Assembly (NCBI GenBank): GCA_963580285.1
Contig: OY757019.1
Coordinates: 63,694,587 to 63,758,586 of the forward strand
Length of the DNA stretch: 64,000 nucleotides
Direction: 5' to 3'
Source of the DNA: Lucinisca nassula
Lineage: Eukaryota > Mollusca > Bivalvia > Lucinida > Lucinidae
Shown in pieces: positions 7,172 through 64,000 of the stretch. Position 1 is the first letter of the stretch. Every line of letters begins with the position of its first letter. The translations under genes were made by a program, and so were the position numbers. The notes beneath the pieces are model-generated. The model was not told where the DNA came from. It made no database searches and saw only the letters and a program-made list of their open reading frames with translations.

Positions 7172-7737
7172 AGTTAGACGTACGCATGCACTCATTTATA
7201 GATTTGTTTTCTACTCACCTGTCACTTAGTGACAAGGTGAGATTTTAGGATCACTTTTTGTCTGTCGTGCGTGCGTGCGTAAACTTTTTATTCAAACGAC
7301 ATCTCCTCCTAAACCACTGATCGGATTTTGACCAAACTTCACAGGAATGATCCTTAGGTGGTCCCCTTTCTAAGTTGTTCAAATGGTTCCGGTCTGTTGC
7401 ATATCTAGGTCACAGGGGCTAAAAATAGATTTTTTTACTGAAAAGTTTAAAAATCTTCTTCTCTGAAACCGCATGGCCCAGGTCTTTGATATTTGGTATG
7501 AAGCTTCATCTAGTGGACTTCATCTAGTGGACTTTATAATTTACTTTTGGTCCTTTGAGATCAGTGTGAATATTCTGAGAAATCAGAAATAAATTATTGG
7601 TTTAGACTCATATTCTAGACAGGTTTTTAACTATTTTGACCCCATTTTGATTTATATCAGTCTTTGAATCGACTGCCTATTCGAAATTCGCAAAATTGCC
7701 GTATGTTGCCTCTGGCTTTCTTTGCCGGATCATTACA

Positions 7738-7783
7738 GGGTCACTGATGAGGCTTTATTAGCCGAAACAACGTAGTATGACCC
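7738..7783 (+). ncRNA. Hammerhead ribozyme, copy 1
   Basis: Stem I is GGGTCA (7738-7743) with TGACCC (7778-7783). The core CTGATGA is at 7744-7750, and stem II is GGCT/AGCC with loop TTATT (7751-7763). GAAA is at 7764-7767. A short stem III (AC...GT) leads to GTA, placing the predicted cleavage after 7777. All invariant core bases of the NUH-type hammerhead are present. Outer stem I may extend through GAT (7729-7731 area) and ATC (7784-7786), leaving a one-sided loop that could contact loop II. Confidence 0.85.
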
Positions 7784-8119
7784 ATCTTCTTTCTTTGAGT
7801 GTTTTCATTGCTCTTAAAGGAACTCATTTTTGATTTTTATTTGCCTTCACTGCAGCTGGTGTTGTGCCGTGTGGCGGCCGTAAAACGTCTTCCCGTACAT
7901 CAACCATAGTGCAGTTTATATTTTACTTTTGGTCCTTTGAGATCAGTGTGAATATTCTGAGAAATCAGAAATAAATTATTGGTTTAGACTCATATTCTAG
8001 ACAGGTTTTTAACTATTTGGACCCCATTTTGATTTATATCAGTCTTTGAATCGACTGCCTATTCGAAATTCGCAAAATTGCCGTATGTTGCCTCTGGCTT
8101 TCTTTGCCGGATCATTACA

Positions 8120-8165
8120 GGGTCACTGATGAGGCTTTATTAGCCGAAACTACGTAGTATGACCC
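8120..8165 (+). ncRNA. Hammerhead ribozyme, copy 2
   Basis: The same fold is displaced by exactly 382 bp: GGGTCA 8120-8125, CTGATGA 8126-8132, stem II 8133-8145, GAAA 8146-8149, TGACCC 8160-8165, with predicted cleavage after 8159. One base differs from copy 1 and makes stem III the 10-nt palindrome ACTACGTAGT. Short palindromic stem III sequences are typical of hammerheads that work as dimers in tandem transcripts. Confidence 0.85.
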
Positions 8166-9269
8166 ATCTTCTTTCTTTGAGTGTTTTCATTGCTCTTAAC
8201 GGAACTCATTTTTGATTTTTATTCTACCAAGATTGTCCAAATTATAGCCCTGGTGCCAAAAATGCCCCCGCCCTTGGGGCTTTGGTTTTACATAGGCTTA
8301 TATAGAGAAAATCTTTAAATATCTTCTTCTCTAAAGCCACAAAGCCCAGGTCTTTGATATTTGGTATGAAGCTTCATCTAGTGGACTTCTACCAAGATTG
8401 TTCAAATTATAGCCCTGGGGCCAAAAATGCCCCTGCCCCTGTGGCCTTTGGTTTTACATAGGCTTATATAGGGAAAATCTTTAAAAATCTTCTTCTCTGA
8501 AACCACAAGGCCCAGTTCTTTGATATTTGGAATGAAGCTTCATCTAGTGGACCTCTATCAAGATTGTTCAAATTGTAGGCCTAGGGTGAAAAATGCCCCC
8601 ATCTGCAGGCCTTTTTGTTTTACATTGGCTTATACAGGGAAAATCTTTGAAAATCTCCTCCAAAACATGGCCCAGTTCTTTTAAATTTAGTGTGTAGCTT
8701 CATCTTGTGGACCTCTACCAAGATTGCTCAAATCATAGCCCTTTGGCCAGAATTGCCCCCGCCCCGGGGCCCTTCGTTTTTACATTGACTTATATAGGGA
8801 ATTTTTAAAAAATATTCTACTCTGAAACCGCAAGGCCCAGGTCTTTGATATTTGGTGTGAAGCTTCATCTAAATTGTTCAAATTATAGCCCTAGAAAATA
8901 GAAGTCAAGGCAATGAAAACCTTTGAAAATCTTCTTGTCTGAAAGCAGAAGGCCAAAGTCTTTGACATTTGGTATGAAGCTATGTCTTGTGGATTTCTAC
9001 CAAGATTGTTCAAATTATAGCCCTGGGACCAAAAATGGCCCGCCCCGGGAACCCCAAGGTTTATGTAGACTTATATAAGGAAAACCTTTAAAAATCTTGT
9101 CTGAAACCAGAAGTCTCCGTTCTTTGACATTTGGTATGAAGCTTCACCTTTTAGACTACTACCAAGATTATTCATATTATAGCCCGTGGCCAATAATGGC
9201 TCTCTCAGGGGCCTACTTGATACCCTATGGATCAGGTGAGCGATCCAGGGCCATCATGGCCCTCTTGTT

Positions 9270-17710: not shown

Positions 17711-19004
17711 CCAGGGTAGGCTGAAAAGTTCTGAGCCTGACCAAGAAGCAGGCATCGAACAGCCATGAAATTTTGTATTCATTAAATCCAAACCTTTATT
17801 ACTTGATTTGACTCAAATGAGTTCAAGTTTACCTGCAATAACGTAGAAATTCTTGACTGTGAAAATTGATACTGGCACGTTTTTGAGAAAATGGACAAAA
17901 TCTGGCATCGTGGTGTCATCAAGTACCTCCATAAAAAGGGGTTAGCTCCTAATGACATTCATGCCGATATGGTTGCTACATTAGGGGATGATGCTCCTTC
18001 GTATGCAACCGTGAAAAGGTGGGCAGCAAATTTTAAGATGGGCAAGGACAGCCTTGAAGATGATGACCGGTGTGGACGACCCACAACGGCAACAACTGAG
18101 GAAACCATCAGCCAAGTGCACAGGGCCGTGATGGATGACAGGCGTTTAACTGTGAATCAGCTAGCTAACACTATTTGCATCTCCCGTGAACTGGTAGAGA
18201 ACATTCTACACAGTGAATTAGGAATGTCGAAGGTTTCCGCCAGATGGGTGCCACGGCTTTTGACGCCTGACCAAAAGTTGACCAGACTGAACCTGTCACA
18301 AGCAAACTTGGCTATTTTTGAAGCAGACCAAGATGGTTTTCTTGACCGTTTTGTCACTCAGGATGAGTGTTGGGTTCATCACTTTGAGCCAGAGACCAAA
18401 AGACAATCCATGCAATGGAAGCACCCTGGCTCACCCCCTCCAAAGAAGGCAAAGGTCGTCTCCTCTGCAGGGAAGGTGATGGCATCAGTGTTCTGGGATG
18501 CCAAGGGTATAATATTCATAGATTACCTTCAAAAGGGCAGAACAATTAATGGGGAGTATTATGCAGATCTGCTTAAACAATTGCGAAAAGCAATTAAGGC
18601 TAAATGACCCGGAAATTGACAAAAGGGGTCTTGTTCCATCAGGACAATGCGCCTGCTCATAAATCGGTTGTCGCAATGGCTGCTGTGCATGACTGTGGCT
18701 TCACACTTGTCAATCACCCTCCATATTCACCTGATCTAGCTCCATCAGATTATTTCCTGTTTCAAAACATGAAAAAGCACTTGGCTGGGCAGCATTATCG
18801 GTCAGACGAGGAGGTGATAGCTGCTGTGGAGGAGTTTTTCAGGGACAAAGATGAGACCTTCTATACCACTGGGATCTTAGGACTCCAGCTTTGCTGGAGG
18901 AAGTGTGTGGACAGGAAGGGAGACTATGTTGAAAAATAAGGCACTTTCAGCATGGAAAAACCATTGGATCTTGGTCAGGCTCAGATCTTTTCAGCCTACC
19001 CTCA
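17711..19004 (+). mobile_element. mariner transposon, 1294 bp
   Basis: The terminal inverted repeats are AGGGTAGGCTGAAAAG followed by TTCTGAGCCTGACCAAGA on the left, with the inverse at 18971-19002. They match at 33 of 34 positions. TA dinucleotides flank both ends (17709-17710 and 19005-19006), the normal Tc1/mariner target duplication. The restored array site reads TTTCACATATGCTTATAT. It carries one broken transposase gene. Confidence 0.92.
17891..18939 (+). pseudogene. mariner transposase (DD34D), single frameshift
   Basis: The transposase cuts the element out and re-inserts it at TA. Frame 1 (17891-18607, 238 codons) holds the N-terminal helix-turn-helix DNA-binding region and the first catalytic Asp in TQDECWVHH near residue 158. 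Frame 2 (18604-18939) holds FHQDNAPAH and YSPDLAPSD; counting residues between these Asp gives 34, the mariner signature DD34D. The C-terminus ends KGDYVEK, as in complete mariner proteins. Together the frames give about 348 residues, close to the usual 345. The only break I see is the frame change with a TGA at 18605, so the copy is young but probably not autonomous. The subfamily was not assigned. Confidence 0.92.
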
Positions 19005-25272: not shown

Positions 25273-26571
25273 ATGGGATACAATACTAGGAAAAGAGCAT
25301 TTTTAGACTTATCAGATGGCGACCCTGAACTGGCTACATTCAATTTCAAAGCAAATGAAAATTTCGCAAGATTTTTAGTGGTTTCGAGCAACGAAGAAAA
25401 AGGCTGTAACTACACTTTCACCTTTTGTCATTGAAAAAAAAATTGAAGCTTTAATTGGAACGCCAAAAAATGTAAAAAAATTGAAAAACGGAACACTTTT
25501 AATTGAAACTAATCGAAAATCTTAAACGGAAAACCTTCTCAAAATAAACAAATTTTTCAACCTTAACGTCTCTGTCACGGAGCACAAAACATTAAATTCA
25601 TGTAAAGGAATACTGCGTGACAGAATGCTTAAACAGGAATCGGAAGCCAGCATTGTTGACTATTTGAAAGAACAAGGAGTTACGGCCTGCAAACGATTCA
25701 AAATTAAAAGAGACAGAAATCTAATCAACACAAACACACTACTACTTACTTTCAACACAACTACGTTGCCGAAACCGCTGAAAATCTTCTACAGAATAAT
25801 ACCGGTTGAAATCTGTGTGCCCAATCCTCTGCGATGTTTTAATTGTCAGAGGTTTGGGCATCATGAGAATGATTGTACTGTCCCTGACGGATCTGTTTGT
25901 GAGAAGTGTGGTGGTACCGATCATCACACTATCAACTGCAAGAATTTTCCAAAGTGCGTGAACTGCGGAAAAAATTATCTGTCCAAATCAAACGTCTGTG
26001 AAGTTTGGAAAACGGGAAAAGAAATTATGAAAATCAAAGTCACTCAAAACGTCACATATTTGGGAGACAAGAAAATTCATCAAAATAAACCAGAATCCAC
26101 ATTCGCCAAAGTTGTCCAATCCCTAACCAGCAAACCTGAAACCAAAGAAACATCTACACAATTTAACGAAAAAGATTTTGAAATTAAACCCCATTCTAAA
26201 ATTATTACCTCTTCTGTAAAACCCAAACCACATTGTCACAACCTACTTCATCGTCACAACCTACTACATCGTCACAACCTACTACATCGTCACAACCTAC
26301 ATCTACTCACCATTCAAGAACAGAATCTAGACAAACTTCACAGACCAGTTTACAACCTAACAGCAAACATTCTAACAGATATCACTCCCGATCCACGTCA
26401 GGGACAGCAGATCAAAAAGAAAAAAACGGCAAAGAAAAGCATAAAGAATCAAACCCAAACAGTAAAGCGGCGTCTGCTGATCCAGTAAAACTGGCTAATC
26501 AGTATGGCGCCCTTGAAAACATGGAGTTGGATGTTGATCCCTCCACGTTCTCAAAGCATAATAAAAGATAA
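25273..26571 (+). pseudogene. LINE ORF1, gag-like zinc-knuckle protein (broken)
   Basis: ORF1 proteins of this class bind the element RNA. The first ATG in context is at 25273 and opens MGYNTRKRAFLDLSDG. A frame change near 25410 and a TAA near 25524 break the N-terminal half. The frame 25625-26488 holds an acidic/basic region, the conserved PNPLRCFNCQRFGH with CCHC knuckles (CFNCQRFGHHENDC, CEKCGGTDHHTINC, CVNCG), and a SYAKVV-like FAKVVQS. A third frame (26233-26571) carries the C-terminus. It begins with a Gln/Ser/Thr-rich stretch made by a short tandem repeat (CATCGTCACAACCTACTA type, 26240-26300). ORF1 ends 42 bases before ORF2. Confidence 0.8.
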
Positions 26572-26612
26572 AAGGATTAAATTCCTTGTTTTAATCTTCT
26601 CTCCATTCAATC

Positions 26613-29600
26613 ATGGATAAGAAGTCAATAATTCAATGGAATTGTCGAAGACTGAAAGCCAATTTTAACGAACTTTTAATTTTAACTACACTTTTTTCTC
26701 CTAATGTCATTTGTCTCCAAGAAACTTTTTTGGAAACTACAGATAATCTTAATTTCAAAGGTTACACTATGTACAATCATATCACAGCGGATGCTCAGAA
26801 GGCATCCGGAGGTACATCGATCCTGGTAAAATCTAACGTTCCTCATAGGAAAATAGATGTAACCACTAATTTACAAGCTGTTGCTGTAAACGTCACTTTA
26901 TCCAAATCCATAACGATTTGTTCTGTCTACCTTCCACCACACTATAATTTTTCTAAACGAGAATTAGAAAATCTAACTAATCAATTACCTAGTCCTTATA
27001 TATTATTAGGAGACTTTAATAGTCACAGCAAATTATGGGCTTGCTCGGATACAAATGACAAAGGAGAAATTATAGAAAATTTTATTGCTGAAAATAAATG
27101 ATTTAAGTTTATTTAATGATAAACAACCAACATAAATTCATTCTCCCACAAGAAATTATTTTGCTTTAGATCTTTCAATTTGCTCCCCAAATATTTATCT
27201 AGACTTTGTTTGGTCTGTTGTGGACAATCTCCACGGGAGCGATCATTTTCCGATAGTAATTGAAGAAATTGAATCTACCCATGAGGATCGCCACCCCAGA
27301 TGGAATTTGAGTAAAGCAAATTGGGAAAATTTTAATCAATTATGTAATGAAAAACTCGGACCTGAATTTTTTTAAAACTGCAAATGATATACAAGATTTT
27401 ACTGATCAATTGATTGATATTGCTGAAAAATGTATTCCTAAATCCTCGACATTTTCAAAAAGAAACAAACCTTGGTTTAATGATGAAGTTAAAAATTCAA
27501 TCAATAAATGAAAATCTGCATTACGAAAATTTAATAAACAACCAACAAAAGAAAATCTTATCCATGCCAAACATATGCGAGCTAAAGCTCGCAAAACAAT
27601 AAAATCAGCCAAAAAAGCATCTTGGCAGCAATACGTCTCCAAACTGAATACCAGAACACCAACGAAGAAAATATGGGACATGATTAGAAAAATTAGTGGC
27701 AAAAACAAATCAAATAAACATGTCCATACCAAATCAAACTGAAATATATGTTCAACGGCTAAAGACATTTCCAATGCCTTGGGGGAAAATTTTCAGAAAA
27801 ACTCCTCTAGCTCAAATTATTCAGAAAGCTTCCAAAATATTAAAGAAGAACAAGAGGAAAAGAATTTAATTTTTTTTTCATTAAATCACGAAAAATATAA
27901 TTTACCTTTCACTACTGAAGAATTATTAGATGCTCTCCATGAATCTCATGATACTGCTGTTGGTCCTGAGGACATACACTATCAAATTTTAAATTATTTA
28001 TCCAATAAGGCATTGGAAACATTATTAAACATTTTGAATGATATTTGCATCACTGGAAAATTCCCTGAAAACTGGAGAAAAACTACCATTATTCCTATTC
28101 CGAAACCTAATAAAGATCATACTGAAGCCACTAATTACAGACCTTTTGCTTTGACAAGTTGCGTATGTAAAACAATGGAGAGAATGATTAATGATAGGCT
28201 GGTTTGGTTCTTAGAATCAAACCAGCTTATCACTAAATTTCAAGCTGGATTTAGAAAGAACAGCTCTACTAACGATCATTTGATTCGCTTAAAATCATTT
28301 ATACGTGATGCCTTTATTAAAAAAGAAAAAAAGGCGTAGCTGTATTCTTTGACCTCGAAAAGGCCTATGATACGACTTGGAAATATGGCATCATGAAAGA
28401 TTTACAATCCTTGGGCCTTAAAGGCCGATTACCACTTTTTATTCAAAATTTCCTATCAGATAGAACATTTAATGTTCACATAGGAAATACATTATCAGAC
28501 ATATTTGATCAAGAACAAGGTGTACCACAAGGTAGTATTTTTGCACCGACCTTGTTCAGTATTAAAATTAATGATATAGTTAAATGTGTAAAAGACCCAG
28601 ATTGTTCGCTTTTTGTTGACGATTTTGGAATTTTTTATCGCTCCAAAAATATGGAAACCATTGAATTTAAACTCCAAAGGTGTTTAAATAATATAGAAAC
28701 TTGGGCAACAGAAAATGGTTTTAAATTTTCAAAAACAAAAACTCAGTGTGTTCATTTCTGCCAAATTCGAAAGTTGCATTTAGATCCAGTTTTAACAATA
28801 TACGGCAGTCCAATTCCAGTCGTCACTGAGGCGAAGTTTTTGGGTCCTTTATTCGATAACAAATTGTCTTTTATTCCTCATATCAAAGTAGAAGTAAAAC
28901 AAAGATCAGGAATCGATACAATTAACTTACTCCACCCATCAAAGACACCAAAGGAAAGAAACACAAACACTAAGCGACCAGACCATAATGGAAACTTAAA
29001 CAAAGGAAGGCCATAAGGACAGTTACTTTCCCACAAAATGGCCATATGGCCATCCAAAATAAAAAAGACACAAGTGATACACACAGTAAGTAACAAACAA
29101 CACCATAAATAAACCGCCACAGAAGAACCGCCTTGGAACGGTCAGTGGAATGATTTCCACTGGGGGGCTTAAATCGATTTTACGTGGCCACAATCCAAAG
29201 CTTTGTAAGCTAAATGTTAAAAGCTCTTGATATTCTGAAAGTCCTGTCCAGTTCCAACTGGGAAGGAGATCACACTGTTCTTTTAAATCTTAATAGATCT
29301 TTAATTTGTTGCAAATTGGACTATGGTTCCATTGTCTATGGATCTGCTAGGAAATCTTATTTAAAATCTTTGGATACTATACATCATCAAGGTTTACATT
29401 TAGCACTTGGTGCCTTTCGTACTTCACCTGTGGAAAGTCTTAATGCTGAATCAAATGAACCATTGCTTTATATTAGAAGAGAGAAATTGTCTCTTCAATA
29501 TATTACTAAGTTAGCCACAAATCCACTCAATTCAGCATATGACACTGTTTTTAACCCTAACTATGAAAGAGTTTATAATAACAAACCATCTGCTATTAAA

Positions 29601-30630
29601 CCTCTTGGCTTAAGAATCAAACCTTTACTTGAAGAGGCCAATATTAATGTCCAAAATATTCAATCGTTCTCATTACCATCAAAAGAACCATGGACATTAA
29701 ATCATCCAAAGATAATTTTAGACTTGCATAAAAATAAGAAATCCGAAATTGATTCACATATTTTTTAAAAACGAATTTTTAGAAATCAAATCCAATTTTA
29801 AACATCACATTTCCATTTACACTGACGGTTCGAAACAAGATGAGAAAGTTGCTTGTTCTGTCATTAGTCCGAATTTCACTGACAGCATTAGATTACCCGA
29901 TTATAGCTCTATTTTTACCGCTGAAGAAAAAGCAATCGATATTGCACTCTATTATATTCGGAGACCAATCCGAAAAACATTTTATCATCTATTCAGATTC
30001 TCTTTCTGTATTGAAAGCTCTCAAAGATCAACAGCATAGAAACCCCTTGATTCAACAAATTTTACGTAAATATCACTTTCTTTCCACCTCGAAGGAGATC
30101 ATTTTTTGCTGGCTTCCCAGTCATGTTAATATCCATGGAAATGAGTTAGCAGACTTAGAAGTTATGGAAATGAGTTAGCAGACTAAGAAGTTAAATCTGC
30201 TTTATCGTTAAATATAACAAATTTAAAAATCCCTTTCTCAGATTTTAAATCCAACATAAATAAGTATATAAAGAATAAATGTCAATCTATTTGGGAAAAC
30301 GAAACTAACAATAAATTGAATAACCTTACTTTTATAGCAAATGTACTTTCACAAATTACAGTGGAAAAGATCAGACAAAGATCACTAGATGCCATATTGG
30401 ACATACAAGACTCACTCATTCCTACATTTTAAAAAAACCAACAAGCACCTTTCTGTGTATCTTGTAATGAACCGTTCACAGTGAAACACTTTCTCATTTC
30501 ATGTATAGAATTTCATCATATACGAACAAAATATTTTAATGTTTCAACGATGAAAGAACTTTTTAATGACATACAATCTTACCAAATAATCAATTTTCTT
30601 AAAGAAACCAGACTTTTTAACAAACTGTAA
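26613..30630 (+). pseudogene. LINE ORF2: endonuclease, reverse transcriptase, RNase H, zinc finger (broken)
   Basis: The ATG at 26613 opens the APE-type endonuclease: IQWNCR, LQETFL, LLGDFNSH, then GSDHFPI in a shifted frame near 27240. The reverse transcriptase spans about 27900-28890 with NYRPFALTS, FQAGFRKNSST, FFDLEKAYD, GVPQGSIFAP and FVDDF. FVDD is an acceptable variant of the FADD box. RNase H follows with YTDGSK (near 29820), AEEKA, YSDSLS (near 29995) and HGNELAD (near 30140). A C-terminal CVSC...H...C finger lies at 30455-30505. At least five frame changes or stops, and the insertion at 28889-29196, make it inactive. Normal ORF2 order is otherwise intact. Confidence 0.88.
28889..29196 (-). 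mobile_element. 3' fragment of a second retroelement inside LINE ORF2
   Basis: Read on the minus strand, this 308-bp piece matches 57590-57892 closely (GGATTGTGGCCACGTAAAAT..., GCGGTTTATTTATG, TTTTACTTCTACTTT). It is flanked by AAAG at 28885-28888 and 29197-29200. It is a 5'-truncated, inverted insertion that separates the RT from the downstream ORF2 parts. Confidence 0.8.
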
Positions 30631-54303: not shown

Positions 54304-54483
54304 TTTAGCTCACCAGAGCCGAAGGCTCCGGGGGAGCTTATAAGATAGGCAGTTGTCCTTCGTAGTCTGCGTCGTCTGGCGTCAACACTTTCAAACGACA
54401 TCTCCTCTGAAGCCACTGGGCCGATTGGGCCCAAATTTTATCTGTAGCATCCTTGGCCTGGGGAATTGAAAGTTTGTTTTTTT

Positions 54484-56735
54484 TAGCTCACCTGTCACGC
54501 AGTGACATGTTGAGCTTTTGGGATCACTTTTTGTCTGTCGTCCGTTGTGTGTGCATGCGTAAAATTTTTCTTCAAATGACATCTCCTTAAGCACTGATCG
54601 GATTTTGACCAGACTTCACAGGAATGATTCTTACGTGATCCCCTTTCAAAGTTGTTCAAATGGTTCCAGTCCATTGCACATCTAGGTCACAGGAGCTAAA
54701 AATAGATTTTTTAAATGAAAACTTAAAAAATCTTCTTCTCTGAAACCGCAAGGCCCAGGTCTTGGATATTTGGTATGAAGCTTCATCTAGTGGACCTCTA
54801 CCAAGATTGTTCAAATTAAAGCCCTGGGGCCAAAAATGCCCCTGCTCGGGGGCCTTTGGTTTTACATAGGCTTATATAGGGAAAATCTTTAAAAATCTTC
54901 TCTGAAACCGCAAAGCCCAGGTCTTTGATATTTGGTGTGAAGCTTCACCAAGATTGTTCAAATTATAGCCCTGGAGCCAAAAATGCCCCCGCCCCGGGGG
55001 CCTTTGGTTTTACATAGGCTTATATAGGGAAAATCTTTAAAAAATCTTCTTCTCTGAAACCGCAAGGCCCAGATCTTTGATATTTGGTGTGAAGCTTCAT
55101 CTAGTGGACCTCTTTCAAGATTGTTCAAATTATAGCCTTGGGGCCAAATATGCCCCCACCCCAGGGCCATTTGGTTTTTCATGGGTTTATATAGGGAAAA
55201 TCTTTAAAAAATATTCTTCTCATAAACCTAGGGGCCTTTGGTTTTACATAGGCTTATATTTGGAAAATCTTTAAAAATCTTCTTCTCTGAAACCGCAAAG
55301 CCCAGGTCTTTGATATTTGGTGTGAAGCTTCACCTAGTGGACCTCTACCAAGATTGTTCCAATTATAGCCCTGGGGCCAAAAATGCCCCTGCCCCGGGGG
55401 CCTTTGGTTATACATAGGCTTATATAGGGAAAATCTTTAAAAATCTTCTTCTCTGAAACCCCAAGGCCCAGGTCTTTGATATTTGGTGTGAAGCTTCATC
55501 TAGTGGACTTCTACCAAGATTGTTCAAATAATAGCCCTGGGGCGAAAAATGCCCCCGCCCCGGGGTCCTTTGGTTTTACATAGCCTTAAATAGGAAAAAC
55601 CTTTAAATTCTTCTCTGAAACCACAAGGCCCAGGTCTTTGATATTTGGTATGAAGCTTCATCTAGTGGACCTCTACCAAGATTGTTCAAATTATAGCCCT
55701 GGGGCCAAAAATGCCCCCGCCCCTGGCCTTTTGGTTTTACATAGACATATGGGGAAATTCTTTAAAAATCTTCTTCTCTGAAACCACAAGGCCCAGTTCT
55801 TTGATATTTGGTGTGAAGCTTCATCTTCTGGACCTCTATCAAGATTGTTAAAATTATAGGCCTAGGGCGAAAAATGCCCCCCCCCCCCCCCCCCCCCCCA
55901 CCTGGGAGCCCTTTGGTTTTACATTGGCTTATGTAGGGAAAATCTTTAAAAATCTTCTTCTCTGAAACCGCAAGGCCCAGTTCTTTGATATTTGGTGTGA
56001 AGCTTCATCTTCTGAACCTCTATCAAGATTGTTCAAATTATAGGCCTAGGGTGAAAAATGCCTCTGCCTGAGGGCCCTTTGGTTTTACATAGGCTTATAC
56101 AGGGAAAATCTTTAAAAATCTTCTTCTCTGAAGAGGTCTTTGATATTTGGTGTGTAGGTTCATCTAGTGAACCTCTACCAAGATTCTTCAAATCATAGCC
56201 CTTGGGTCAAAAATGCCCAAGCCCCGGGCCCTTCGATTTTACATTGATTTATATAGGGAAATTAAAAAAATCTTCTACTCTGAAACCACAAGGTCGTCGT
56301 CTTTGATATTTGGTGTGAAGCTTCATCTAGTGTATCTCTATCAAAATTATTCAAATTATAGCCCTCGGTAAAAGAAGTCAAGGCAATGAAAACCTTTGAA
56401 AATCTTCTTGTCTGAAAGCAGAAGGCCAAGGTCTTTGATATTTGGTATGAAGCTTTGTCTTGTGGATTTCAACCAAGATTGTTCAAATTATAGCCAAAAA
56501 TGGCCCGCCCAGGGACCCCAAGATTTATATAGACTTATATAAGGAAAACTTTTAAAAATTTTCTTGTCTGAAACCATAAGGTTCCGGTCTTTGATATTTC
56601 GTATGAAGCTTCACCCTTTAGACCACTACCAAGATTATTCAAATTATAGCCCGGGGCCAATAATGGCACTCCCAGGGGCCCACTTGTTACCCTATGGATC
56701 AGGTGAGCGATCCAGGGCCATCATGGCCCTCTTGT
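54484..56735 (+). mobile_element. Nested Helentron-like element (TTCAAATTATAG units)
   Basis: The head GCTCACCTGTCACGC/...GTGACATGTTGAGC is at 54486-54514, then TGTCTGTCGTCCG. About fourteen units follow. The tail TCAGGTGAGC (56699-56708) has hairpin GGGCCATCATGGCCC and TCTTGTT. A run of about twenty C residues at 55879-55898 lies within a unit. No gene. Confidence 0.75.
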
Positions 56736-56791
56736 TTATCAAAATCGGCTCATTAGTTTGGTTGCTATGGCAACTTGTAGTTTCCATAGAC

Positions 56792-57892: not shown

Positions 57893-59867
57893 TTTATAAT
57901 GGGGAAAATTGAAAAATGGCATTTACTGCCAAGCCTCTGCAAATATTTTGACAAAACTTTCATAGAAATGTTCCATAGGCAATCTACTATTGGCCATATG
58001 ATTTTAGGCCTTCTGCTCATTTTTAGCTCACCATCACGTAGTGACGAGGTGAGCTTTTGGGATCACTTTTTGTCAGTCGTCCGTCGTGCGTGCGTCCGTC
58101 CGTGCGTGCGTGCGTGCATGCGTAAACAATTTCTTTAAACGACATCTCCTCCTAAACCACTGATCGGATTTTGACCAAACTTCACAGGAATGATCCTTAG
58201 GTGGTCCCCTTTCAAAGTTGTTCAAATGGTTCCGGTCTGTTGCACATCTAGGTCACAGGAGCCAAAAATAGATTTTTTTTTACCAAAAACTTAAAAAATC
58301 TTCTTCTCTGAAACCACAAGGCCCAGGTGTTTGATATTTGGTATGAAGCTTCATCTAGTGGACCCCTACCAAGATTGTTCAAATTATAGTGCTGGGGCCA
58401 AAAATGCCCCCGCCCCGGGGCCCTTTGGTTTTACATGGGCTTATATAGGGAAAATCTTTAAAAATCTTCTTCTCTGAAACCACAAGGCCCAGGACTTTGA
58501 TATTTGGTATGAAACTTCAACTAGTGGACCCCTACCAAGATTGTTCAAATTATAGTGCTGGGACAAAAAATGCCCCCGCCACGGGGCCCTTTGGTTTTAC
58601 ATTGGCTTATATAGGGAAAATCTTTAAAAATCTTCTTCTCTGAAACCACAAGGCCCAGGTCTTTGATATTTGGTATGAAGATTCCTCTAGTGGACCCCTA
58701 CCAAGATTGTTCAAATTATAGTGCTGGAGCCAAAAATGCCCCCGCCCTGAGGCCCTTTGGTTTTACATAGGCTTATATAGGGAAAATCTTTAAAAATCTT
58801 CTTCCATGAAACCACAAGGCCCATGACTTTGATATTTGGTATGAAGCTTCATCTAGTCGACCCTTACCAACATTGTTCAAATTATAGTGCTGGGACAAAA
58901 AATGCCCCCGCCACGGGGCCCTTTGGTTTTACATTGGCTTTTATGGGGAAAATCTTTAAAAATCTTCTTCTCTGAAACCACAAGGCCCAGGTTTTTGATA
59001 TTTGGTATGAAGCTTCATCTAGTGGACCCCTACCAAGATTGTTCAAATTATAGTGCTGGGGCCAAAAATGCCCCCGCCCCAGGGCCCTTTGGTTTTACAT
59101 AGGCTTATATCGGGAAAATCTTCTTCTCTGAAACCACAAGGCCCAGGAATTTGATATTTGGTATGAAGCTTCATCTAGAAGACCCCTACCGAGATTGTTC
59201 AAATTATAGTGCTGGGGCAAAAAATGCCCCCGTCCTGGGGCCCTTTGGTTTTACATGGCCTTATATAAGGAAAATCTTTAAAAATCTTCTTCTCTGAAAC
59301 TGCAAGGCCCAGGACTTTGATATTTAGAATGAAGCTTCATCTAATGGACCTCTACGAAGATTCTTCAAATTATAGCCCTTGGGCCAAAAATGCCCCCGCC
59401 CTAGGGCCCTTTGGTTTTACATAGACTTATATAGGGAAAATCTTTAAAAATCTTCTTCCCTGAAACCACAAGGCCTAGGTCTTTTATATTTGGTATGAAG
59501 CTTCATCTAAAAGACCCCTAACAAGATTATTCAAATTATAGTGCTGAGGCCAAAAATGTCCCTGCCCCAGGGCCCTTTGGTTTTACGCAGGCTTATATAG
59601 AGAAAATCTTTAAAAATCTTCTTCTCTGAAACCGCAAGGCCCAGGACTTTGATATTTGGTATGAAGCTTCATCTAGTGGACCCCTTCCAAGATTGTTCAA
59701 AATATAGTGCTGGGGCAAAAAAATGCCGCCGCCCCGGGGCCCTTTGGTTTTACAAAACTTATATAGGGAAAATCTTCAAAAATCTTCTTCTCTGAAACCC
59801 CAAGGCCCAGGACTTTGATATTTGGTATGAAGCTTCATCTAATGGACCTCTACCAAGATTGTTCAAA

Positions 59868-61437
59868 CTAGAGCTGTCAGAGGATCTGACTATAGCCCCG
59901 CTTCAGCGCTGTCAGAGAAGAAAGTTATTTAAGCTGCAGAGAAAACAGTTATGAACAAGAAATAACTGTTGAAAATTTTACATTATCTGGAAAAACTCTA
60001 AGAGTTGTGAGCCCTTGTCCCTCATTTCAATGAGCATGATACATTACCAGAATGTCCATGTTTATACTAAATTTCATCTTCCATTTTTCAATGTTCAAAG
60101 GGTAATAACTCCTAAAGTAGGCAAATCAGAGTCAGGGTTCCTGCGCTCTGCACATTGTCTCATGGTGCTTTACACTTGTGTTAAGTGTCATGAAAATATC
60201 TCAAATGGTTTGTGAGTTATGGAGCCGACACAGTCAAAATTGCCTTTTTAAATGTTCAAAGGGCAATAACTCCTAAAGTAGGCAAACCAGAGTTATGGTT
60301 CCTGCACTCTGCACATCATCTCAAGGTGCTTTTCATTTATTTGAAGTTTCATGAAAATATCAGAAACGGTTATGGAGCGGACATAGTTAAAATTGCCATT
60401 TTTTAATATTCAAAAGCCTATAACTGAAAAAGTAGACAATCCAGAGTTTGGGTTCCTGCGCTCTGCACACGTAATATGGTGCTTTACATTTGTGTGAAGT
60501 TTCATAAAATTATCTCAAACGGTTTTTGAGTTATCGAGCAAAGACGGCTAAAATTGATATTTTTCAATATTCAAAGGGAAATAACTCAAAAATTAGGCAA
60601 TCCAGAGTTATGGTTCCTGCACTCTGCACACCATCTCATGGTGTTTAATGTTTGTGTGAAGTTTCATGAAAATATGTGAATGGGTTTTAAAGTTATGGAG
60701 CGGACACGAAAATTGTTAACAGACACAGACAGACACACAGAAAATACGAAAACCAGAGTTATGGTTCTTGCGCTCTGCACATTGTCTCATAGTGCTTAAC
60801 ATTTGTGTGAAGTTTCATGAAATTATCTCAAATGGTTTTCGAGTTATGAAGAGGACACTGTTAAAATTGCCATTTTTCAATGTTCAAAGGGCAATAACTC
60901 CAAAAATAAGCAATGCAGAGTTATGGTTCCTGCGCTCTGCACATCGTCTCATAGTGCTTAACATTTGTGTGAAGTTTCCTAAAAATATCTCAAACGGTTT
61001 TCGAGTTATGAAGCGGACACAATTAAAATTGCCATTTTTCAATGTTCAAAGGGCAATAACTCCAAAAGTAGGCAATCCACAGTTATAATTCCTTCGCTCT
61101 GCACATTGTCTTATGGTGTTTAACATTTGTGTGAAGTTTCATGAAAATATGTTAAGCAGATACAAAGTTATGGAGCCAACACAAATTAACGGAATTACGG
61201 AATTACGGAAAATGTTCAAAGGGCAATAACTCCAAAAGTAGACAATCCACAGTTATAATTCCTTCGCTCTGCACATTGTCTTATGGTGTTTAACATTTGT
61301 GTGAAGTTTCATGAAAATATGTTAAGCAGATACAAAGTTATGGAGCCAACACAAATTAAAGGAATCACGGAATTACGGAATGACAGAAGGACATGGCAAA
61401 TCCAATATAGCCCCACTTTTTCAAAGCGGGGCTATAA
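59868..61437 (-). mobile_element. Helentron-like array element, family TATAGCCCCGCTT, minus strand
   Basis: On the minus strand the head TATAGCCCCGCTT (61436-61424) pairs with GTGGGGCTATA, then TTCCG-type repeats. Units of about 155 bp (on the plus strand: GGGCAATAACTCC, GGTTCCTGCGCTCTGCACAT, GTTTCATGAAAATAT) follow. The tail is AAGCGGGGCTATA (59903-59891), an exact 13-base inverse, directly followed by the hairpin GTCAG/CTGAC (59890-59876). Flanks GTTCAAA and TTATAGCCC rejoin to the host consensus. Confidence 0.78.
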
Positions 61438-62645: not shown

Positions 62646-63701
62646 AATCCTTTGTATTGCTGTCTTGTTGAATGAACATAGATGTTACTCTTTTTAATTG
62701 GTAATCAGAATGACAATTCCATTTTAATGTAATTTAGTAAAGCTATGTTCAGAAAAACAGTTCGATTTGGCTAATATGTTCAGGTTTCCAAAATTAATTG
62801 CTTCATTGTCTATTGGTCATAACATAAAAAGGATTGTTTGAAACAGTGTATTTGATTACTTTTTAATGCATGATAATTTTGCTTACCAATGTGTATTGTA
62901 TAATCACCAGCTCCATATCCAGTTGATTTGGAATAAACAAACAAAATATTAAACAATGTAAATGTTTGTCAAAAAAGGAGGTAAGGGTTGGCTGTAGGGG
63001 TGGTGGAGGCCAACATTCAATTTTTAATTTAAGATTGAACCACTAAATGTGCACATTTCAAAATAACAAGTTTGTATCGTGCCAAACCAAAATGTCAGGG
63101 AAAAATGCTTTCATGTCAGGGAAAAGTCAGGGAAATGTCAGGGAATTTTGTCTGAAAAAATTTGTATGAACCATGTTATAGCCCTGATACCAAAAATGTC
63201 CCCGCTCCGGGGCCCTTTGGTTTTACATAGACTTATATAGGGAAATCTTTAAAAATCTTCTCTGAAACTGCAAGGCCAAGGCCTTTGATATTTAGTATGG
63301 AGCTTTATCTAGTGGACCTCTACCAAGATTGTTCAAATTATAGCCCTGGGGCCACAAATACCCCCCATCCCGAGGCCCTTTGGTTTTACATAGATTTATA
63401 TAGCCCCGGGACCATTTGGTTTTTGCATAGGCTTATGTAGGGAATATCTTTAAAAAAATCTTCTTCTCTGAAACTGCAAGGCCCAGGTCTATGATATTTG
63501 ATATGTAACTTCATCTAGTAGACCTTTGCCAACATTGTTCAAATTATAGCCTTTGTTGATGTTTGGTATGAAGCTTCACCTTTAAGACCTCCCTCAACAT
63601 TATGCACATTAAAGCCCTTGGGCCAATAATGGCCCTCTCTGGGGCCCACTTGTTACACTATGGATCAGGTGAGCGATCCAGGGCCATCATGGCCCTCTTG
63701 T

Positions 63702-64000
63702 TAGCTCACCGTCACGTAGTGACGAGGTGAGCTTTTGGGATCACTTTTTGTCCGTCGTCTGTCGTGCGTGCGTGCGTCCGTGCGTAAACAATTTCTTTAA
63801 ACGACATCTCCTCCTAAACCACTGATCGGATTTTGACCAAACTTCACAGGAATGATCCTTAGGTGGTCCCCTTTCAAAGTTGTTCAAATGGTTCCGGTCC
63901 GTTGCACATCTAGGTCACAGGAGCCAAAAATAGATTTTTTTCACCAAAAACTTAAAAAATCTTCTTCTCTGAAACCACAAGGCCCAGGTGTTTGATATTT
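63702..64000 (+). mobile_element. Helentron-like element head and first units, cut by window end
   Basis: The head GCTCACCGTCACGTAGTG/...GACGAGGTGAGC starts directly at the last T of the preceding element's TCTTGTT. TCCG/TGCG repeats and the introductory ACCACTGATCGGATTTTGAC block follow. It is nearly identical to 58024-58330. Confidence 0.75.

Follow-up and report, generated by a model that had tools for sequence, protein, structure and literature searches.

A retrozyme-like insertion in a Helentron array

The stretch of DNA analysed here, which we call the window, comprises 64,000 nucleotides of the Lucinisca nassula genome. From 7207 to about 9270 on the plus strand it holds a non-autonomous Helentron of the HINE type with 166-bp central repeats. 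The left end of this Helentron carries the hairpin CTCACCTG at 7214 together with a microsatellite, and the right end carries CAGGTGAG at 9233 and a palindrome at 9247-9263. This arrangement of a 5' subterminal inverted repeat with hairpin, a microsatellite, central repeats, a 3' subterminal repeat and a palindrome is like that of the HINEs of bivalves, which PMC7492417, where it deals with their anatomy, presents as non-autonomous Helentrons with central repeats of 140-180 bp. More copies or pieces related to this HINE lie at 54479-56740, 58027-59870 and 63176-64000. The window also contains the remains of a non-LTR retrotransposon (25526-29768), with endonuclease and RVT_1 matches in successive frames, and a Mariner-type transposase fragment (17870-18607; Transposase_1 and HTH_48).

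Inside the 166-bp repeats lies an insertion of 688 bp (7535-8222, plus strand), equal to 1.8 units of 382 bp, whose end points are uncertain by about 2 bases because TT is common to element and target. Unit 1 (7535-7916, plus strand) is complete; it differs from the majority of genomic units at eight positions and lacks one base that most units have. Unit 2 (7917-8222, plus strand) consists of the first 306 bp only and stops at the 3' end position usual among the genomic copies that we examined. The two units show four differences in these 306 bp, and all four are transversions. The element closes with the 3' terminal tail CATTTTTGATTTTTATT (8205-8222, plus strand), at which reverse transcription presumably began. 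The unit has a GC content of 0.38, below 50%, and the longest stop-free stretch on the plus strand of the corresponding circle is 46 codons. The 688-bp element is non-coding and holds no Penelope-like coding region for reverse transcriptase (RT) and GIY-YIG nuclease. A repeat comparison of the window revealed no repeats within the element other than the unit itself.

The HINE is distinct from the inserted element and is merely its landing site. The nesting in a Helentron-like array that an earlier note on this DNA had proposed is borne out by the position of the insertion inside the 166-bp repeats, between HINE-type left and right ends. As for its further suggestion that such nesting may be new, several other copies of the element also lie in repeated DNA, and the nesting is unremarkable as such.

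When the flanks of the element are joined, 33 array units of the window align over the site. In 30 of these units exactly 15 bp are missing, corresponding to one T and to the 14-bp duplication that immediately precedes the element. If TT is common to element and target, the empty site in the window reads GGAC/TTCTACC (a slash marks the point of insertion), and the element is not flanked by a duplication. Both copies of the 14-bp target sequence stand in tandem to the left of the element (7504-7534, plus strand), a pattern that occurs once in the window and may be a by-product of the insertion.

Hammerhead motifs and their predicted folds

As the earlier note had claimed, and as pattern and descriptor scans confirm, the element carries two complete hammerheads 382 bp apart, with the motif GGGTCA-CTGATGA-GGC..GCC-GAA-A..T-A-TGACCC and all core bases present in both. 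Each has a stem I of 6 bp and a stem II of 3 to 4 bp, and the open stem is stem I, which makes them type I. In hammerhead 1 (7738-7783, plus strand), stem III is ACAACGTAGT, with 2 bp followed by an A-A mismatch, and in hammerhead 2 (8120-8165, plus strand) it is the palindrome ACTACGTAGT, the majority form of the family. Self-cleavage is predicted from the sequence at 7777-7778 (GTA/TGACCC) and at 8159-8160, both on the plus strand.

On both strands of the window, the hammerhead descriptor finds exactly these two sites and nothing else. The same descriptor gave four matches in total on 100 dinucleotide-shuffled windows, one of them with a stem I of at least 6 bp. A looser core pattern without stem pairing returns the same two sites in the window, and at least two matches in five of 100 shuffles. 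Since the two motifs are copies of one unit and not independent, the motif alone leaves room for chance; a chance origin is unlikely because 70 of the 73 genomic motifs in our first sample of copies, defined below, keep the core. Copies across the genome without conserved core bases would, according to the earlier note, have spoken against its reading, and the first sample is not of this kind.

A search of the window against Rfam found no family at its gathering score. RF00008 was the only hammerhead family among the matches, at 20.3 and 17.8 bits and so below its cut-off of 48.5, and RF00163, which we take to be the Rfam model for type I hammerheads, was absent from the matches in the window at E-values up to 5. 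The check by covariance models that the earlier note had proposed thus came out negative, and the hammerhead motif is present though missed by the standard Rfam cut-offs. Two minus-strand Rfam matches to HtrA thermometers were far under threshold and were taken as chance. Exact and gapped ribozyme patterns gave 0 matches each against viral contigs.

For a single motif, the unconstrained minimum free energy (MFE) structure is not the hammerhead. Its energy is -14.0 kcal/mol, compared with -12.8 and -13.2 kcal/mol for the constrained folds, i.e. within about 1 kcal/mol, and the stem III pairs of copy 1 are unformed even in the constrained fold. When copy 2 is co-folded with itself, the dimeric hammerhead is the unconstrained MFE structure (-39.3 kcal/mol). 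Co-folds of copy 1 with itself and of copy 1 with copy 2, the pair that the window locus itself would form, have an MFE structure other than the dimeric hammerhead (-35.1 kcal/mol). In a control with shuffled stem III, the dimeric hammerhead was the MFE structure in 14 of 300 cases. The palindromic stem III is therefore predicted in silico to favour a dimeric ribozyme, as the earlier note had claimed, when copy 2 pairs with itself and hence for the family majority, and not for copy 1 with itself or with copy 2. According to PMC7229834 and PMC7761336, efficient cleavage is the work of monomers for most invertebrate hammerheads and of dimers for those of amphibians; a ribozyme acting as a dimer in the present family is a prediction.

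The 382-nt circle is predicted to fold at -93.9 kcal/mol (z -3.2), and one of 400 shuffles was equally good. The z-score is -3.1 without the ribozyme and -0.34 for the complement, and 15 background windows have a mean of -0.8, with three below -2.5. The highly self-paired circular RNA that is a feature of retrozymes is, in this family, a matter of fold prediction.

Copies across the genome

We used unit 1 as a first query against the 2.93-Gb assembly from which the window comes. From 2724 first-look candidates, which are not confirmed copies, 40 were scored and gave 129 matches at 30 loci. Removal of the overlapping loci L014, L015, L024 and L029 left a first sample of 26 independent copies, including the window copy, with a bias from the query toward copies that have a whole unit 1-382. 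A diverged unit from L013 served as the second query, for which 40 scored of 2482 candidates gave 30 more loci. The second sample comprises 18 pieces, 16 of them new, after overlaps had been merged and L038, L049 and L058 dropped because they run off their loci. The unit measures 382/383 bp, which lies within the range of short tandem units (about 150-450 bp).

The copies end at nearly the same base. The 3' end lies at unit position 306-311 in 25 of the 26 first-sample copies, with L008 ending at 317, and at 304-311 in 12 of 16 in the second sample, where the others end at 301, 205, 215 and 325. Over both samples, 37 of 42 pieces end at 304-311 (37 of 41 copies if L041 is counted as one), the remaining five being L008, L039, L048, L054 and one piece of L041. 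At L041 (815-2947), a piece ending at unit 215 is followed by 268 bp of other DNA and then by a piece starting at 219; this is probably a single copy split by a later insertion.

The 5' ends are scattered over the unit (first sample, Rayleigh p 0.19), and lengths run from 0.7 to 5.3 units over both samples and from 1.80 to 5.32 in the first. The longer copies cross the ribozyme cleavage site, and three pieces of less than one unit (L036, L052 and L060) have the usual 3' end. A small circle on which copying sets out from a fixed point and continues for several laps is the simplest template for copies whose 5' ends lie almost anywhere, whose 3' ends nearly coincide and whose sequence runs through the cleavage site. 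Because units of 383 and 385 bp alternate in L015/L016, a dimeric circle was considered as template; it was rejected, since the extra bases are at differing positions. Ten of the 37 refined 5' ends (L001-L060) lie at unit 363-382, beside the 3' arm of a hairpin predicted to form between about 314-319 and 375-380. The enzyme perhaps stalls there, and we do not press the point because both queries favour copies that reach unit position 1. Among the 26 first-sample copies, the 5' end closest to the cleavage site at 243/244 is that of L017, which adjoins it at unit 245.

In the first sample, 54 of the 73 ribozyme motifs are identical, and three, counted by eye from the strings, have a broken core. 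A palindromic stem III together with intact core and stems is found in 59 of the 73, five of these 59 with a change in loop II, and the A in stem III of the window's copy 1 is a minority base present in three of 76 unit segments. The second sample (L031-L060) is more diverged, and 10 of its 33 motifs are not intact, seven of them through small hammerhead deletions. As the motif varies like the rest of the unit (1.26% of motif positions against 1.23% elsewhere, first sample), and as these 10 motifs are not intact, we see no selection on the fixed copies.

Variants tend to be common to the units of one copy. The first sample has 71 positions at which all covering units carry one minority base, with at least one such position in each of the 26 copies, compared with a mean of 4.5 and a maximum of 13 when the unit segments were dealt at random 100 times. 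A further 89 positions differ in a single unit only and 10 in other ways; we read these as later mutations, of which L007, L010 and L030 have many. The units of these three copies are more diverse than would simply be expected if each copy went back to a single circle, which speaks against such descent. The mean distance between units in the first sample is 0.0096 within copies and 0.0268 between them. In the second sample, 41 common minority positions are spread over 10 of the 12 multi-unit pieces (random dealings: mean 7.1, maximum 15), while 52 positions differ in a single unit only and 10 in other ways.

The junctions reveal no regular target-site duplication (TSD), since the two flanks of a copy are hardly more alike than mismatched flanks: the longest word common to both has a mean length of 5.0 bases against 4.83 in mismatched flanks (26 copies). 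Two of the 26 copies have flank words of 9 (L003) and 8 (L008) bases, and 0.9% of mismatched flanks reach 8; the 8-base word of L008 adjoins both junctions and is perhaps a true TSD. Manual reading of five empty-site paralogues points to insertion without flanking duplication at GGAC/TT (window copy), GCGAC/TT (L005, with TA in two other paralogues), CAGTG/TTG (L009), GGCT/C (L018) and CTGAC/TT (L020), so that all but L018 have TT or TTG at the 3' junction. Paralogues of L002, L011, L012, L026 and L027 align too, but are too diverged or ambiguous, and at L027 some 15 bp of target may have been lost.

In copies whose right flank starts with T, TT or TTG, the end of the retrozyme is not separable from the target, and this fits priming by a nicked end that pairs over a few bases with UUU(G). 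A target logo of 37 junctions, with the five pieces that have other 3' ends left out, has a weak excess of A and C after the T's shared with the tail. The first flank base after the T's is A or C in 23 of the 26 first-sample copies.

A probable circular template and its alternatives

We consider it very probable that the insertion at 7535-8222 of the window is one of the genomic copies left by a metazoan non-LTR retrozyme, which has spread through a circle-based cycle. The unit size, the type I ribozyme, the low GC content, the tandem form and the relatives in the same genome all support the retrozyme-like dimer that the earlier note had seen here. The tandem units, the intact ribozyme cores, the fixed 3' end, the scattered 5' ends, the common variants and the five empty sites are observed, and together this footprint of the copies suggests target-primed reverse transcription that sets out from a single point on a small RNA circle and runs round it.

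Cleavage, circularisation, priming and the identity of the enzyme are what we infer, in a cycle that would run as follows. A tandem retrozyme copy would be transcribed by read-through, the type I hammerheads would make one cut in each unit, possibly working best when the palindromic stem III joins two of them, and a host RNA ligase would close the 382-nt RNA into a circle; the read-through and ligase steps are taken from the accounts in PMC7229834 and PMC7761336. An RT from another retrotransposon would then begin at a fixed position of the circle, at about unit 306-308 in UUUUUGAUUUUUAUUUG, with a nicked chromosomal end that pairs via TT or TTG as its primer. Reverse transcription might cover less than one lap or upwards of five, and would stop almost anywhere. 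Finally, the cDNA would be connected with the opposite side of the break, usually with no TSD arising.

The main rival to a circular template is a linear multimer of RNA, left uncleaved and terminated in the T-rich tail as at a polymerase III-like stop, which would be reverse transcribed from its 3' end, with the ribozymes as passengers or serving another step. We regard this as unlikely. The fixed 3' end does lie inside a T-rich tract, TTTTTGATTTTTATT, a multimeric RNA would likewise cross the cleavage site, and uncleaved RNA from an already homogeneous array could give the common variants. However, this tract is present in every complete unit, and the RNA would have to pass one to five of them and stop at the next. 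Polymerase III A and B box patterns were tried and gave no match, the 5' ends show no concentration at a single start, and lengths run from 0.7 to 5.3 units.

Insertion of a single copy and its later expansion in place, in the manner of a satellite, by unequal crossing-over or replication slippage, strikes us as very unlikely. Units that are more alike within than between copies would suit it, as would the many tandem arrays in the window, but it does not predict that most copies, at unrelated sites, combine a partial first unit of any length with nearly the same last base, and the sub-unit pieces at L036, L052 and L060 share that 3' end. Scarcely credible is a hammerhead match by chance in an unrelated short interspersed repeat, for which the lack of Rfam families at gathering score, the single-motif MFE structure and the two or more loose core matches in five of 100 shuffles could be cited. 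Against it stand the genomic motifs, whose core is complete in 70 of 73 (first sample) and 23 of 33 (second sample), a predicted well-paired circle, and a tandem form and unit size that agree with mussel retrozymes as described in PMC7229834.

If copies arise by reverse transcription of a circle, the question of the enzyme follows. Penelope-like elements are regarded in the relevant parts of PMC7229834 and PMC7761336 as a likely or strong, though unproven, candidate. A search of the same genome for GIY-YIG nucleases gave 746 candidates, of which 150 were scored and yielded 138 matches. L073 (1078-7345) holds a Penelope-like tandem in which a 5'-truncated copy precedes a longer copy and both stop at the same 3' end, a layout like that of the retrozyme copies. 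The RT (RVT_1) and the GIY-YIG nuclease of this element lie in one 820-codon frame, and hammerhead scans of the element found none.

The Penelope-like family of L073 ends in the 11-mer TTTTTGATTTT, which is also in the retrozyme tail; the 3' ends compared are ...GGACTTTTTGATTTT at L073 and ...CTCATTTTTGATTTTTATT in the retrozyme. In controls, 134 of 20000 shuffled tails and 4 of 25588 30-mers from the window gave a tail match of 11 nt, figures that are uncorrected for the number of families examined. Twenty of the 138 GIY-YIG matches were followed downstream to a further 3' end each: 13 of these ends have the 11-mer, six have TTTGTTGATTTT and one (L085) is without the tail. The 11-mer is absent from the 12 loci L061-L072, in roughly 3.2 kb each. 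Of the 20 further ends (L074-L093), 18 run into (TA)n, holding (TA)6, whereas the retrozyme copies are not in (TA)n targets. The Penelope-like family thus differs from the retrozyme in coding for RT and GIY-YIG, in having no hammerhead in the scans and in its (TA)n targets, and with a matching tail on one side and differing targets on the other, the evidence for it as partner is mixed.

Tentatively, and with more doubt than belief, we put forward a general model for animal retrozymes. Their insertion may proceed by rolling reverse transcription, primed by the target, of a single circle that the ribozyme has made, with the chromosome end pairing with UU(UG) at one internal start, several laps and no TSD, and the enzyme may be Penelope-like, recognising the common tail UUUUUGAUUUU as LINE enzymes do SINE tails.

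Relation to known retrozymes

Retrozymes make abundant small RNA circles in animals, and the footprint of the copies bears on how such circles re-enter the genome, from sequence alone. The start site, the tail and the junctions are precise targets for biochemistry, and the same analysis is applicable to any genome with retrozymes. PMC7229834 leaves the return of the circle to the genome open, in its discussion of this step, and offers target priming or a small-RNA primer as options. In the main text of that article, to which our comparison is confined, we found no mention of 3' ends at a fixed position, of 5' ends spread over the unit, of variants common to the units of an array or of insertion without TSDs.

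Plant LTR retrozymes, as portrayed in PMC7229834, resemble the present element in having a hammerhead-bounded unit that is thought to pass via a circle. They differ in their type III hammerheads, in the distance of about 700 bp between these, and in their LTRs, PBS, PPT and 4-bp TSDs.

The metazoan non-LTR retrozymes reported there, from Mytilus galloprovincialis, Acropora millepora and axolotl, are much closer. According to that account, they have type I hammerheads, tandem units of 150-450 bp (about 350-390 bp in the mussel), low GC content and no coding capacity, and they occur as dimers to multimers that give a paired circle. All of this is found here, the paired circle by prediction, and the likeness is one of description. 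Their TSDs, when present, are stated to be longer than 4 bp, and stem III is a 10-nt palindrome here compared with one or two pairs and a tetraloop in axolotl. The retrozyme is thus a published kind of element, of which the window element is most likely a further member, placed in a HINE-type Helentron repeat array. The new part, as the copies suggest, is the footprint that they leave in the host genome: one start, a variable stop, several laps on one template and no regular TSD.
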